Positions 2,616 to 6,478 of a stretch of 6,478 bases of DNA are shown here, one piece after another; within the stretch, counting starts at the first letter, position 1, and every line of letters begins with the position of its first letter. Below the pieces are notes generated by a model, which saw only the letters and a list, made by a program, of their open reading frames with translations, was not told the origin of the DNA and made no database searches. The stretch is from Candidatus Zixiibacteriota bacterium (GTDB taxonomy: Bacteria; SM23-81): the NCBI GenBank assembly GCA_030628225.1, contig DAOVRJ010000147.1, positions 1-6,478 on the forward strand, given 5' to 3'. The translations under genes and the position numbers were made by a program.

Positions 2616-3023
2616 TCACCCAAAAAGATCGTTTCCTCCTAACAAACACCTGGTCAATATACCAAGAAGCATAGCGCACAGTATGCTCGCCAGTGTGCCG
2701 ATCAAATAGTACTCGGCGAATTTGCGACTCTTTAGCTCCTCAAAACGAGCGATGGACTTGGCGGTAAATATCAATGCAATAGACGAATACTCCCCTATCA
2801 AAACAAGCGTTAAGACGAAAATCCTTTCCAGGACCCCGATGATAGCTCCAGCTCTCTTCAATCCTCCGTCCGGCAGTCGATACTGCCTTAAAATCAAGGT
2901 CACCACAAAATGTACCCCTCCTGTCGCTAACAGGTAGGAAACAAAATAGATTGCTATTTTAAGTACATGGTTTGAATGAATCATCGCTATTTGCTCGTCA
3001 AGTGCTTTGGCTTTACTCTTCAT
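2616..3023 (-). CDS. small integral membrane protein resembling the C-terminal half of DUF3307 proteins (satD partner)
   Basis: A 135-aa protein with a short charged N-terminus and about three hydrophobic segments (residues 20-45, 58-88 and 103-127), so predicted to sit in the inner membrane. The stretch from about residue 61 to 125 (IIGVLERIF, LIGEYSSIAL, AKSIARFEEL, RKFAEYYLIGTL) strongly recalls the C-terminal membrane region of DUF3307 proteins, which are often encoded next to satD. The usual N-terminal DUF3307 membrane domain is missing, and there is no room for it in the 152 bp before satD. Function is unknown. The first ATG (3023-3021) has no clear Shine-Dalgarno site and lies inside the palindrome array, so residues 3-9 are encoded by a repeat unit. 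A later start at Met14 (2984-2982) is possible. An in-frame TGA at 3029-3027 rules out extension. It could be a degraded remnant rather than a working gene. Confidence 0.65.
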   Translation of the reverse strand: MKSKAKALDEQIAMIHSNHVLKIAIYFVSYLLATGGVHFVVTLILRQYRLPDGGLKRAGAIIGVLERIFVLTLVLIGEYSSIALIFTAKSIARFEELKSRKFAEYYLIGTLASILCAMLLGILTRCLLGGNDLFG

Positions 3024-3159
3024 TTGTCAAGTTTTATTACTTGACCTTCGTTTGTCAGATGTTTTTACCTGACTTTTGTCTGTCAAGCGTTTTTGCTTGA
3101 CCTTACTTCTGTCAAGTGTTTTAGCTTTACTTCCTGTTTGTCAAGCGTTTTTACTTGAC
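2997..3159. repeat. six-unit tandem array of 20-bp palindromes, 28-29 bp period
   Basis: Units start at 2997, 3026, 3054, 3082, 3111 and 3140. Each is 20 bp, near the consensus GTCAAGYGTTTTTRCTTGAC, with 8-9 bp T-rich spacers. Each unit is an inverted repeat (GTCAAG ... CTTGAC) able to form a 5-7 bp hairpin with a 6-base loop. Unit 3054-3073 has paired changes in both arms (GTCAG with CTGAC) that keep the pairing. Units at 2997 and 3111 share a weakened right arm, CTTTAC. The array fills the gap between satD and the membrane-protein gene and extends 27 bp into the latter. It would be transcribed as a string of small hairpins. Possible roles are protein-binding iterons, a processing or stability element between two genes, or a minisatellite; none is proven. 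Confidence 0.9.
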
Positions 3160-3175: not shown

Positions 3176-3844
3176 CTATTTCTTCAAGTAGCTCTTAAGT
3201 AATTTGTTAACAAGATTATTCCCTGCCATGACGAGTTCCCAATGTGCGCCGATCAAAAACTGATATGCCGCCTGTCTTGTATAACCAAAATGCTTTCCCA
3301 GCTGCTCATAAGTAAAATTCGGATGCAGTCGATAATAACTCACTAATGCTCGCTGTCTTTCTGTCCATGAGTTTTCTAAAAGCTCAATGAAGCGGAGTAA
3401 TTCATTAATCATGTCATCCGTGGGATTGGGTGTACTTGAAGATTTGATGATGATGTTTCTCTTTTTCTTTTTACATACCTCTAATACATCTCTCGCTCTG
3501 TAAAAGGCGCTCCCCCTCATCCCCACTTCTTCATCTAAAAGTTTTTCAATAGCGCCGACACCGAGACCGCAATAGATATCCACCGGCAGTTTGCTTCTCA
3601 TGAAATTCAACAGCTCGATCGCTCTTTCGGGCGTCTTGATCGCCCCCTGAAATTCGTCTCCCACTGTCGGTGTAAAGCGAACGATGATCACATCGGAAAA
3701 TCTCTCGTTTGTCTCCTCAAGCACTCTTTTAAGTTCCCCGAAAAGATGTTCCCAATCGTCCAGTTCTCTTGAGCCTTTTATATCTCCGATAATCGCGCAA
3801 TTGCACGACTCCCCCTTCTCTCCACCATGCCGTATGTCTTCCAT
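3176..3844 (-). CDS. SatD-family protein: palm-like N-terminal domain plus C-terminal helix-turn-helix (222 aa)
   Basis: The first part contains AIIGDIKGSR (17-26), TVGDEFQGAI (60-69), GLGVGAI (93-99) and RGSAFYRARDVL (110-121). This order matches the SatD family, named from a Streptococcus acid-tolerance locus. The C-terminal part (about 158-205) has WTERQRALVSYY, then FTYEQLGKHFGYTRQAAYQFL (177-197), a sigma-region-4-like helix-turn-helix, which suggests DNA binding. My inference is that the N-terminal domain is related to the GGDEF/nucleotidyl-cyclase palm fold, with D21 and D63/E64 as candidate metal ligands; activity is unproven. No signal peptide or membrane segment, so cytoplasmic. The start is placed at ATG 3844-3842 because AAGGGGA lies six bases upstream; a TTG twelve codons earlier (3880) has only a weak site. 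The gene precedes the membrane gene by 152 bp of palindromes and follows phosphofructokinase by 113 bp. It is AT-richer than its neighbours. Confidence 0.82.
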   Translation of the reverse strand: MEDIRHGGEKGESCNCAIIGDIKGSRELDDWEHLFGELKRVLEETNERFSDVIIVRFTPTVGDEFQGAIKTPERAIELLNFMRSKLPVDIYCGLGVGAIEKLLDEEVGMRGSAFYRARDVLEVCKKKKRNIIIKSSSTPNPTDDMINELLRFIELLENSWTERQRALVSYYRLHPNFTYEQLGKHFGYTRQAAYQFLIGAHWELVMAGNNLVNKLLKSYLKK

Positions 3845-3957: not shown

Positions 3958-5052
3958 TCATTCATCCCCAAAGCAAACGCCTATGGCCTTGTTGGCCAGG
4001 ATCAGGGGATGATCCGGGGGAACCAGTTTCTGCTTGGCCACGGCCTTATCCAATTCCACAGGGACGACCCGATCGTTTTTGAGGGCCACCATAAGCCCGA
4101 AACGCCCTTCGGCTACCAAATCCGCTGCCGCACAGCCGAAGCGCGTGGCCAGGATGCGATCTGAGGGAACGGGAGTCCCTCCCCGCTGCAGATGACCCAG
4201 GACGGTCACCCGGCATTCCTGGCCAGTTTCTTTCTCGATATCCACAGCCAGGTTCCGGCTAATGCCTCCCAATCGCCAGGGGTCAGTGCTCTCCTCGATC
4301 ACCCGATCCACCACCATCTCTCCCCCCCTTGGCTTGGCCCCCTCGGCCACCACCACGATGCTGAACCTCTTGCCCTTTCTGCTTCGCTCACAGACCTTCT
4401 GGCTTATCACCTCCAGGTCGTAGGGCATCTCCGGGATCAGGATCACATCTCCCCCGGAGGCCACCCCAGCAGCCAGGGCGATCCAGCCGGCATAGCGGCC
4501 CATGGTCTCCACCAGCATCACCCGGTGGTGAGACTGGGCTGTGCTGTGGATCTTGTCGATGGCCTCGGTGGCGTTAAAGACTGCCGTAGCGTAACCGAAG
4601 GTCACGTCCGTCTCGCACAGATCGTTGTCGATGGTCTTGGGCACGCCTACCACATTCATCCCTTTCTGGCAAAGACCCTGAGCGATGGACAGAGATCCAT
4701 CCCCACCGATGACCACCAGAGCGTCCAGTTTCTGCTTTCCGTAATTCTCCATTACCTGGTCAGACACATCCTGGAAGCTCAACCCCTGCGGTCCTTTTTG
4801 GGGATGTCGAAAAGGGTTCGCCCTGTTCGAGGTGCCTAAAATCGTTCCCCCCAGGGTGAGGATGCCGGAGACATCTTCAACATCCAGGCAGCGGTGCTTA
4901 TCGTGGATCAACCCCCAAAACCCATCCCGGTAGCCCGTCACCTCCATCCCGTACTTCATGATGGCCGTTTTGGCCACGGCTCGAATAACCGCGTTGATCC
5001 CAGGACAATCCCCACCGCCGGTGAGAATGGCGATGCGCTTGGGTTTGCTCAT
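3958..5052 (-). CDS. pfkA: 6-phosphofructokinase, Gly/Lys active-site type (364 aa)
   Basis: Phosphorylates fructose 6-phosphate to fructose 1,6-bisphosphate, the committed step of glycolysis; cytoplasmic. Motifs in order: GGGDCPGIN (12-20, phosphate loop), GGDGS (116-120), PKTIDND (138-144) with catalytic Asp142, ETMGRYAGW (182-190, substrate binding), AEG (236-238) and GHLQRGG (286-292). G119 corresponds to E. coli Gly104, the ATP-type residue, whereas PPi-dependent enzymes have Asp there. K139 replaces the E. coli Gly124 and is shared with PPi-type and actinobacterial 'group III' enzymes. The Gly+Lys combination is known in ATP-dependent actinobacterial enzymes, so ATP use is the best guess, with PPi or mixed use not excluded. 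At 364 aa it is longer than the roughly 320-aa E. coli enzyme, as group III members tend to be. The start ATG has AAGGAG about eight bases upstream. It stands alone between a repeat-rich 254-bp gap and satD. Confidence 0.94.
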   Translation of the reverse strand: MSKPKRIAILTGGGDCPGINAVIRAVAKTAIMKYGMEVTGYRDGFWGLIHDKHRCLDVEDVSGILTLGGTILGTSNRANPFRHPQKGPQGLSFQDVSDQVMENYGKQKLDALVVIGGDGSLSIAQGLCQKGMNVVGVPKTIDNDLCETDVTFGYATAVFNATEAIDKIHSTAQSHHRVMLVETMGRYAGWIALAAGVASGGDVILIPEMPYDLEVISQKVCERSRKGKRFSIVVVAEGAKPRGGEMVVDRVIEESTDPWRLGGISRNLAVDIEKETGQECRVTVLGHLQRGGTPVPSDRILATRFGCAAADLVAEGRFGLMVALKNDRVVPVELDKAVAKQKLVPPDHPLILANKAIGVCFGDE

Positions 5053-5114
5053 CCTGCTTCTCCTTCTGCGCTATTTTTTTATGAAAAGTTCGGAGAGTTC
5101 TGAGAGTTTTTTTG

Positions 5115-5150
5115 AACTCGGAGCTGGGAGCTCGGAGTGCGGAACTCGGA
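5115..5150. repeat. heptamer microsatellite, ARCTCGG x5
   Basis: Five 7-bp units in a row (AACTCGG, AGCTGGG, AGCTCGG, AGTGCGG, AACTCGG) with few mismatches. Just before it, AGTTCGG, AGAGTTC and GAGAGTT look like related or inverted fragments, and GAGTT (5104-5108) can pair with AACTC (5115-5119). It lies in the 5' region of the phosphofructokinase gene, about 65-100 bp before the start codon, and may be part of its leader. No function is evident. Confidence 0.75.
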
Positions 5151-5277
5151 ATAACAATGCAAAAGCCGAGACTCGAGAAAAGAAAGACTGATCCCGGATT
5201 CTGGGTGCTTGTTAAGAACTAAACCTCGGAAAATGCAGAGTCAAGCTGGCATACACTCAGAATCGAGCATTTCACTT

Positions 5278-5315
5278 ACCAGCATCCAGCATCCAGAATC
5301 CAGTATCTAGGATCC
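5278..5315. repeat. heptamer microsatellite, ATCCAGN, overlapping the DHH gene stop codon
   Basis: Units ATCCAGC (5284-5290), ATCCAGA, ATCCAGT, ATCTAGG (5305-5311) and a partial ATCC follow a leading ACCAGC. The fourth unit supplies the TAG stop (5307-5309) of the DHH gene, so the last residues and stop are made of repeat sequence. It shares the 7-bp period, but not the sequence, of the array at 5115-5150 in the same gap. The stretch between the two (5151-5277) shows no gene, clear promoter or terminator. Confidence 0.75.
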
Positions 5316-6368
5316 GCCTTTCTGAACTCCCTCAACCTCAACAAGCGGACGCATGACCGTGGCCTCCTTATGACCCACCAGGCTCATGAACCTGCCGATC
5401 ATCTCGTCTTCGAGTTGAGTCCTCTCATCCTCACCCAGATCTGCACCATCCAGCCAGCCGCCGGCCATCATGTTGTGGCCTCCTGCCCGCCCCCTGCGGC
5501 CCACAAGCCGCCGGATCAGATAACCCGCCCTGGCCTTGGTGTTGGTGGTGCGAATGGACAGCACCAGCCTGTGGCCATGCCAGGCCATGCATAGAGACCA
5601 GGTGATCCGTTCCAGCCGCACCAACAGATCGGCCACCTCGGCTGCCAACTCGGGAACCTCCACTACCCCGAGCCTGCTCACAATCACGTTTTTGTAAGTG
5701 ACGGCACCCTCCAGAGAACGCCCCAGAACGTTGAAATAGGACCGCGGCAGGCTGGGCCGCTCGATACGGGCCAGGTGCTTCTTGTTGGTCAGGGGAAACA
5801 GAGACAGGTAGGCCCGGGTGTCCGCCTCCCCCGCCTCCCTGCCCAGAGCTTCGGTCTCGGAGTGGATGCCGTAGAAAAGGGCGGTGGCCAGAGGGGTGGG
5901 GATCTTACAGTCGCATCCCTGCAGATATTCGGTGAGAATAGTGGCCGCGGCCCCATACCTGGGGCGCACATCCGTCAGGGGCGCTTTGGTGGCCCGCCTC
6001 AGAGGATGATGGTCGATGACCACGGTGGCCTTGACCTCCTCCGGCAGGGAGTTATTGCCTGTTTTGGGCTGGGTGTCCACCAGGGCGATGTGCCGGTAGT
6101 TGCGCACCCGGATGCGCCACACCGGACTCAACTTGATCTTCAACAGGCGCAGCATGGCCCTGTTCTCGGCCCGGCCCACGATGCCCCCGTAGCCCACTGT
6201 GGATCTGATGCCGAATTTCTCGCCGACCAGGTGCTTCAGAGCCACGGCGCTGGCGATGGAATCGGGGTCGGGGTTATCATGGGTCAGGATCAGCAGGCGG
6301 CGGCAATTGCTCAGCACCGCCTCCAATCTAACCAGCGCCTGGGCGGTTTGCGTCTGGACGGGTTCCAT
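5307..6368 (-). CDS. DHH/DHHA1-family phosphoesterase, NrnA-like (353 aa)
   Basis: A metal-dependent phosphoesterase of the DHH superfamily, whose NrnA-like members degrade very short RNAs, pAp or cyclic-dinucleotide products in the cytoplasm; the exact substrate here is unknown. Motif I is THDNPDPDSIAS (29-40) with H30, D34 and D36. Motif II is ALVDTQP (95-101) with D98. Motif III is the name-giving VIDHHP (117-122). Motif IV is YGIHSETEALGRE (166-178), where E171 stands in the place usually held by Asp (TDT or SDT). The C-terminal DHHA1 domain has GRRGRAGGHNMMAGG (290-304), the substrate-binding GGH loop. The core is complete, and length is normal for the family. Start is placed at ATG 6368-6366 because GGGAG lies seven bases upstream; an upstream in-frame GTG (6461) would add 31 residues that include a hairpin-forming region and no recognisable domain. 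The C-terminus ends in a heptamer repeat. Confidence 0.9.
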   Translation of the reverse strand: MEPVQTQTAQALVRLEAVLSNCRRLLILTHDNPDPDSIASAVALKHLVGEKFGIRSTVGYGGIVGRAENRAMLRLLKIKLSPVWRIRVRNYRHIALVDTQPKTGNNSLPEEVKATVVIDHHPLRRATKAPLTDVRPRYGAAATILTEYLQGCDCKIPTPLATALFYGIHSETEALGREAGEADTRAYLSLFPLTNKKHLARIERPSLPRSYFNVLGRSLEGAVTYKNVIVSRLGVVEVPELAAEVADLLVRLERITWSLCMAWHGHRLVLSIRTTNTKARAGYLIRRLVGRRGRAGGHNMMAGGWLDGADLGEDERTQLEDEMIGRFMSLVGHKEATVMRPLVEVEGVQKGGS

Positions 6369-6375
6369 CTGTGAT

Positions 6376-6380
6376 CTCCC
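6376..6380 (-). promoter_or_regulatory. ribosome binding site deciding the DHH gene start
   Basis: GGGAG on the minus strand lies seven bases before the ATG at 6368. It favours this start over the upstream GTG at 6461. Confidence 0.55.
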
Positions 6381-6396
6381 GATAAAAGACAAGGGC

Positions 6397-6423
6397 AAAA
6401 ACCGGCATGACAGATCTTGCCGG
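6397..6423 (-). terminator. hairpin plus T run just before the DHH gene: terminator of the upstream gene or leader attenuator
   Basis: On the minus strand CCGGCA (6423-6418) pairs with TGCCGG (6407-6402) across a 10-base loop and is followed directly by TTTTT (6401-6397), the form of an intrinsic terminator. It ends only 28 bases before the DHH ATG and leaves almost no room for a promoter after it. It may therefore end an upstream transcript, or act as an attenuator within the DHH leader. Bases 6424-6478 beyond it hold no feature I can support. Confidence 0.45.
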
Positions 6424-6478
6424 ACAAATTTCTTCCGGGGAAGCTCCACGCCCCAGCTCACCCCGCCGAGACTAGCCC

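Follow-up and report, generated by a model that had tools for sequence, protein, structure and literature searches.

SatD proteins join a predicted palm domain to a helix-turn-helix and are encoded beside a membrane partner and tandem putative operators

SatD is probably a nucleotide-responsive autoregulator that controls a membrane partner from tandem operators, a reading to which we assign a probability of about two in three. In the mechanism we propose, the helix-turn-helix would bind palindromes that recur every 28 or 29 bp ahead of the partner gene, probably with one SatD dimer per palindrome. The palindromes would stand before satD where no gap parts it from the partner, and between the two genes where a gap exists. 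On the array, SatD would act as a repressor, in a regular multimer whose spacing follows the 28/29 pitch. The palm, which appears to keep the two metal-site aspartates and the likely phosphate-contact residues of nucleotide cyclases, would bind a nucleotide, either an NTP or a cyclic product, and the bound nucleotide would set the grip of SatD on its operator and through it the amount of partner made.

SatD is a named family without an assigned activity. The acid-tolerance name derives from the streptococcal sat operon, and no paper that we found in the open-access literature describes how SatD folds, which module its partner carries or which operator it uses. The member studied here lies in a 6,478-nucleotide stretch of DNA from a Candidatus Zixiibacteriota bacterium, the whole of which is referred to as the window. 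What our computations show is the predicted fold, the conservation of residues, the gene pair, the palindrome array with its pitch and the covariation of recognition helix and palindrome. What is new is the combination of a palm and helix-turn-helix regulator that keeps its metal-site residues, an exclusive membrane partner and a putative operator array of fixed pitch.

Results

SatD is predicted to contain a palm domain and a helix-turn-helix

The annotation of the product of positions 3176-3844 as SatD is right: it matches the Pfam family PF16264 with E 1.6e-16 over residues 17-169 (61.1 bits, the curated cut-off being 29). The features of the gene are as follows.

3176..3844, minus strand: satD coding sequence, 222 aa, PF16264 (open reading frame and Pfam match)
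3431..3808, minus strand: predicted palm domain, residues 13-138 (AlphaFold2 model, Foldseek and VIA matches)
3782..3784, minus strand: codon of D21, candidate metal ligand at the end of strand 1 (82/82 homologues)
3653..3658, minus strand: codons of D63-E64, candidate metal ligand in the hairpin of strands 2 and 3 (E64 in 79/82)
3245..3367, minus strand: predicted helix-turn-helix, residues 160-200 (AlphaFold2 helices, helix-turn-helix profile matches)
3245-3286, minus strand: putative recognition helix, about residues 187-200 (the segment that best predicts the palindrome sequence)

The neighbouring genes, encoding a transketolase (462-2489), a 6-phosphofructokinase (3958-5052) and a DHH-family phosphoesterase (5307-6476), are all on the minus strand as well. 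Short tandem repeats of 7-14 bp occupy 5087-5151 and 5279-5315, between the phosphofructokinase and DHH-family genes.

The original prediction, made from the order of motifs, was of a palm domain like that of GGDEF proteins and class III cyclases, fused to a C-terminal helix-turn-helix. The motifs are present at the residues it named, with D21 in GDIKGSR and D63-E64 in VGDEFQ, followed by GLGVGAIE (93-100) and by G111 with AFYRAR (113-118). Structure prediction and fold search bear out the palm layout. An AlphaFold2 model built on an alignment of 82 homologues (pLDDT 92.5, pTM 0.87) places strands at residues 15-22, 53-59, 64-69, 90-97 and 131-134 and palm helices at 31-48, 72-85 and 112-127, giving the beta-alpha-beta-beta-alpha-beta-alpha-beta arrangement of a palm, followed by five helices that include the helix-turn-helix. 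The top seven Foldseek matches in the PDB were all class III cyclases, the best being Rv1900c (1ybu; E 4.8e-5, rmsd 2.9, 121 columns), with GGDEF domains close behind. Under VIA-align the two families tied, the best class III score, Z 12.8 (Rv1625c cyclase; rmsd 2.5, 123 residues), standing against Z 12.3 for the GGDEF domain of YfiN; GTP cyclohydrolase III reached Z 12.1. The model thus supports a palm fold for the N-terminal domain, with class III cyclases closest and GGDEF domains about as close.

Comparison by sequence gave a fainter signal. A PDB sequence search with the single SatD protein returned no meaningful match, and a profile of the palm alone placed the Rv1900c cyclase first at E 0.037. 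Comparison of SatD with cyclase profiles by hhalign scored 21, a value reached by 5 of 100 shuffled profiles. This borderline result counts against the main reading, and the palm assignment therefore relies on predicted structure. Membership of the GGDEF family by profile was rejected, the alignments either losing register or failing to outscore shuffles.

The predicted helix-turn-helix consists of helices 162-173, 179-186 and 190-199. In the window protein this region (about 160-200) scores under the Pfam cut-off; across the family, Sigma70_r4 is matched at E ≤ 1 in 41 of the 82 members, and the family profile matches solved helix-turn-helix proteins. The fusion of a palm to a helix-turn-helix, as originally predicted, is thus upheld by the model and the fold searches, whereas assignment to GGDEF proper is not, the first glycine of that signature being mostly leucine in SatD.

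satD is paired with a gene for a helical membrane protein

Counts of gene pairs, pitch and arrays refer to 92 SatD loci, out of 461 candidate loci. In 81 of the 92, a partner gene lies directly beside satD on the same strand, and in many the start and stop codons of the two genes overlap. Such pairs were found in Bacillota, Calditrichota, haloarchaea and Pseudomonadota. In the window, the partner features are:

2616..3023, minus strand: partner gene, small all-helical membrane protein of 135 aa, a minimal DUF3307-type protein in which the N-terminal DUF3307 half is missing
2652..2864, minus strand: SatD-linked C-terminal module of the partner, GxxIGxxER..AKSIxR..EYxLIGTLxS, without a Pfam family

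The true start of the partner is probably M14, near 2984, because one of the palindromes described below (unit 6) lies inside the reading frame called from 3023; alignment with the corresponding locus of a related genome (L006) is a further basis for this choice. Most partners begin with DUF3307 and several with a different N-terminal half, while the window copy has neither. Common to them is a C-terminal module of ~70 residues with seven invariant positions, which no Pfam family covers. The partner is predicted with high confidence to be all helical, and we found no convincing solved structural relative.

DUF3307 alone was rejected as the conserved feature of the partner, because DUF3307 proteins that do not adjoin SatD lack the C-terminal module or match it very weakly, and several SatD partners lack DUF3307. 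The window's genome carries a second full-length, SatD-independent DUF3307 gene without the module (L169; G000:C151:3400-3717), preceding a bifunctional-nuclease-like (DUF151-type) gene; the neighbourhood of L166 is similar. Across 145 genomes scanned, the module was restricted to genomes that carry SatD. An apparent exception, G112, has a divergent SatD adjoining the module, and G041 has a weak, unlinked match with SatD present in the same genome. At three loci (L031, L041 and L052) satD is intact and the partner is broken, truncated or a remnant; the converse, a partner without SatD, was not seen.

Such a pair could be a guard or addiction unit, in which a harmful partner is restrained by SatD, either as a repressor or through a nucleotide that SatD makes. 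This would be compatible with the autoregulator explanation, and we regard it as possible but doubtful. In its favour, satD alone among the accessory genes of Streptococcus pyogenes ranks in the upper quarter for essentiality; it is essential in all tested strains of that species yet present in only 178 of 249 genomes (PMC11323703). The absence of the C-terminal module from SatD-negative genomes in the 145-genome scan and the several SatD loci with lost or broken partners point the same way. There is also a precedent in Panoptes, a two-gene unit in which a palm-type synthase, OptS, stands beside a membrane effector, OptE, makes the nucleotide that keeps OptE quiet and is needed for growth (PMC12657218). 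SatD and its partner share with Panoptes the two-gene unit of palm protein and membrane protein; for SatD, dependence of growth on the palm gene is seen only in the S. pyogenes transposon data. The systems also differ, OptS being an mCpol protein and OptE having a beta-barrel, whereas SatD carries a helix-turn-helix and its partner is all helical.

That helical prediction itself weighs against a guard pair, since the partner has no known fold and no beta-barrel like that of OptE or Cap15; the S-2TM-beta barrel of the Panoptes effector was not found in it. PADLOC defence models gave no convincing match to SatD or its partner, with one weak hit at most, and no viral relatives were found; plasmids gave two haloarchaeal records. 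From the sat operon literature, a non-polar satD mutant of S. mutans is reportedly viable, which also argues against this reading. The streptococcal sat operon (ylxM-ffh-sat genes) carries a member of the same gene family, and Streptococcus macacae (L068) has the order ylxM-ffh-satD-DUF3307. In contrast, the other satD loci inspected have different upstream neighbours. In the sat operon, acid tolerance has been linked chiefly to ffh.

Metal-site residues are conserved without the full motifs of either enzyme family

The original prediction had tied the palm reading to the conservation of D21 and D63/E64, and both sites are kept across bacterial and archaeal SatD. In the alignment of 82 homologues D21, S25, G62, D63 and G111 are invariant; E64 is retained in 79 (G or S in the other three), F65 in 79 and R118 in 75, and 81 have R or K at position 26. 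Because D21 and D63 are invariant and E64 nearly so, an objection to the palm reading from lack of conservation fails. The window protein deviates from the family at several conserved positions (R31 to W, Q35 to F, T101 to K and D110 to R). Residue 110 is D in 78 of the 82 homologues and Arg in the window SatD and in L006, and its replacement in this lineage counts against the main reading.

In profile alignments D21 and the hairpin Gly-Asp are in register with the metal-binding aspartate pair of class III cyclases. These enzymes (Rv1900c, Rv1625c and Ma1120), the best structural matches of the model, share with SatD the palm fold, the Asp that closes strand 1 and the hairpin Gly-Asp. In contrast to them, SatD lacks the N.A.R motif that supplies the transition-state Asn and Arg (1 of 82 homologues, against 19 of 25 control class III cyclases), is fused to a helix-turn-helix and is paired with a specific membrane protein. 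GGDEF diguanylate cyclases carry a Lys at the position matching R/K26 of SatD, five residues after the first Asp, and their fold ties with that of class III cyclases as a match (Z up to 12.3). SatD has [LIT]GDEF in place of GGDEF, position 61 being Leu in 49, Thr in 12, Ile in 10 and Gly in only one of the 82, and the profile alignment with GGDEF domains is much weaker than the structural one. By these motifs, SatD appears to be a cyclase-type scaffold with conserved metal-site aspartates that falls outside both enzyme families, because the N.A.R motif and the first Gly of GGDEF are missing. For the same reason, SatD can be taken only as a possible enzyme.

SatD might nevertheless work as a cyclase or as a GGDEF-like synthase, with the membrane partner as the target of its product and the helix-turn-helix serving for feedback only. 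Complete conservation of D21, D63 and the GDIxxS[RK] loop would fit such an enzyme, as would the identity of the best structural matches, which are active cyclases, and the comparison with MabR, a PucR-type protein of the same layout without a catalytic motif (PMC11617747). We nonetheless consider a synthase unlikely, given the near absence of N.A.R from SatD, the missing first Gly of the GGDEF signature and the occurrence of the palm fold in enzymes of other chemistry, such as GTP cyclohydrolase III.

The nearest known layout to SatD is that of the PucR/CdaR-type regulators (MabR, Rv2242), in which a GGDEF-like palm is followed by a helix-turn-helix, the palm of MabR lacking a catalytic motif (PMC11617747). 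This layout raises the idea that the palm of SatD is a mere dimerisation or ligand-binding relic and the protein an ordinary transcription factor. Rv2242 is among the Foldseek matches, with 230 columns aligned but a poor rmsd of 14.1. Neither PF17853 (GGDEF_2) nor PF13556 (PucR HTH) is matched above threshold in SatD; both are outside the 25 most frequent matches of the 82 members, and a single sub-threshold GGDEF_2 match (E 0.096) occurs in one homologue. The retention of D21, S25, G62, D63 and G111 without exception in bacteria and archaea would be unexpected in a relic, and we judge that account rather unlikely. The palm fold with its metal site intact, the exclusive membrane partner and the regular spacing of the putative operators make the system directly testable through the nucleotide bound, the occupancy of the array and the effect of the partner when released.

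Tandem palindromes of fixed pitch accompany satD

Between satD and the partner gene the window contains six tandem imperfect palindromes, listed here without strand.

2997..3159: putative SatD operator, six palindromes of the type GTCAAGCGTTTTTGCTTGAC, in steps of 29/28/28/29/29 bp
3140..3159: palindrome unit 1, nearest satD
3111..3130: palindrome unit 2
3082..3101: palindrome unit 3
3054..3073: palindrome unit 4
3026..3045: palindrome unit 5
2997..3016: palindrome unit 6, within the partner reading frame as called from 3023

No copy of these palindromes within one mismatch was found elsewhere in the same genome. The related genome G001 (L006) carries a corresponding array at this position, in which paired changes in the arms keep the dyads.

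Tandem palindromes were detected in 38 of 92 satD flanks; of 1891 further 300-bp windows taken from these loci, 2 scored. At the same threshold, pairs of similar palindromes recur at a pitch of 28 in 15 of the 92 loci and of 29 in 24; the remaining pitches from 18 to 45 yielded two isolated cases between them. When the threshold is relaxed, arrays of two to eight units appear at 55 loci, before satD in 39 and after it in 16, leaving about 40% of loci without one, a point against the main reading. Where at least 70 bp separate satD from the partner, an independent scan placed the array downstream of satD in 9 of 19 loci, compared with none of the 61 loci lacking such a gap. The array precedes satD where it is joined to the partner and, as a rule, occupies the gap where one exists. 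These putative operators at SatD loci support the earlier suggestion that the helix-turn-helix couples the palm to transcription.

The sequence of the palindromes is specific to lineage: GTTCGCC in haloarchaea, TGTCTAT or GGAAATT in streptococci, TATAAG in Calditrichota and GTCAAG in the window. Loci with similar half-sites tend to have similar recognition helices (Mantel r 0.28, p 0.0005), also after correction for how alike the proteins are elsewhere (r 0.23, p 0.001). Among 45 windows along SatD, residues 187-200 predict the palindrome best, and the four best windows all lie in the helix-turn-helix. We infer from this covariation that SatD binds the array, bearing in mind that the correlation is modest in size. 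A fixed pitch across bacteria and archaea, combined with free palindrome sequence, offers a test case for the co-evolution of recognition helix and operator. A further point against the main reading is that 28-29 bp is a non-integer number of helical turns; a simple model with all dimers on the same face of the DNA is therefore a poor fit, and an oligomer winding round the DNA must be assumed.

A bolder form of the autoregulator reading would make SatD both a transcription factor and a nucleotide-converting palm enzyme seated on the 28-29 bp array, whose nucleotide state releases a harmful partner. We think this improbable as a whole. If true, it would amount to a guard or stress switch common to bacteria and archaea, and the essentiality of satD in Streptococcus pyogenes, many strains of which are without the gene, would be accounted for.

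That the palindromes act instead as RNA hairpins in the message, for example as a stability or attenuation element, is very unlikely: a transcript of the window array does fold far better than shuffles (z -6.8), which counts against the main reading, but the fixed 28/29 pitch, the covariation with the recognition helix and the lack of a clear excess of G-T (G-U) over A-C among arm mismatches all speak for DNA sites. No Rfam family was matched in the window.

Palindromes at a fixed 28/29 bp spacing and with lineage-specific sequence were seen in the window and in L006, L019, L056, L061, L074 and L080. At a locus without a partner (L003:1-1490), satD is preceded by a repetitive stretch containing runs of N and followed by two palindromes spaced at pitch 28.
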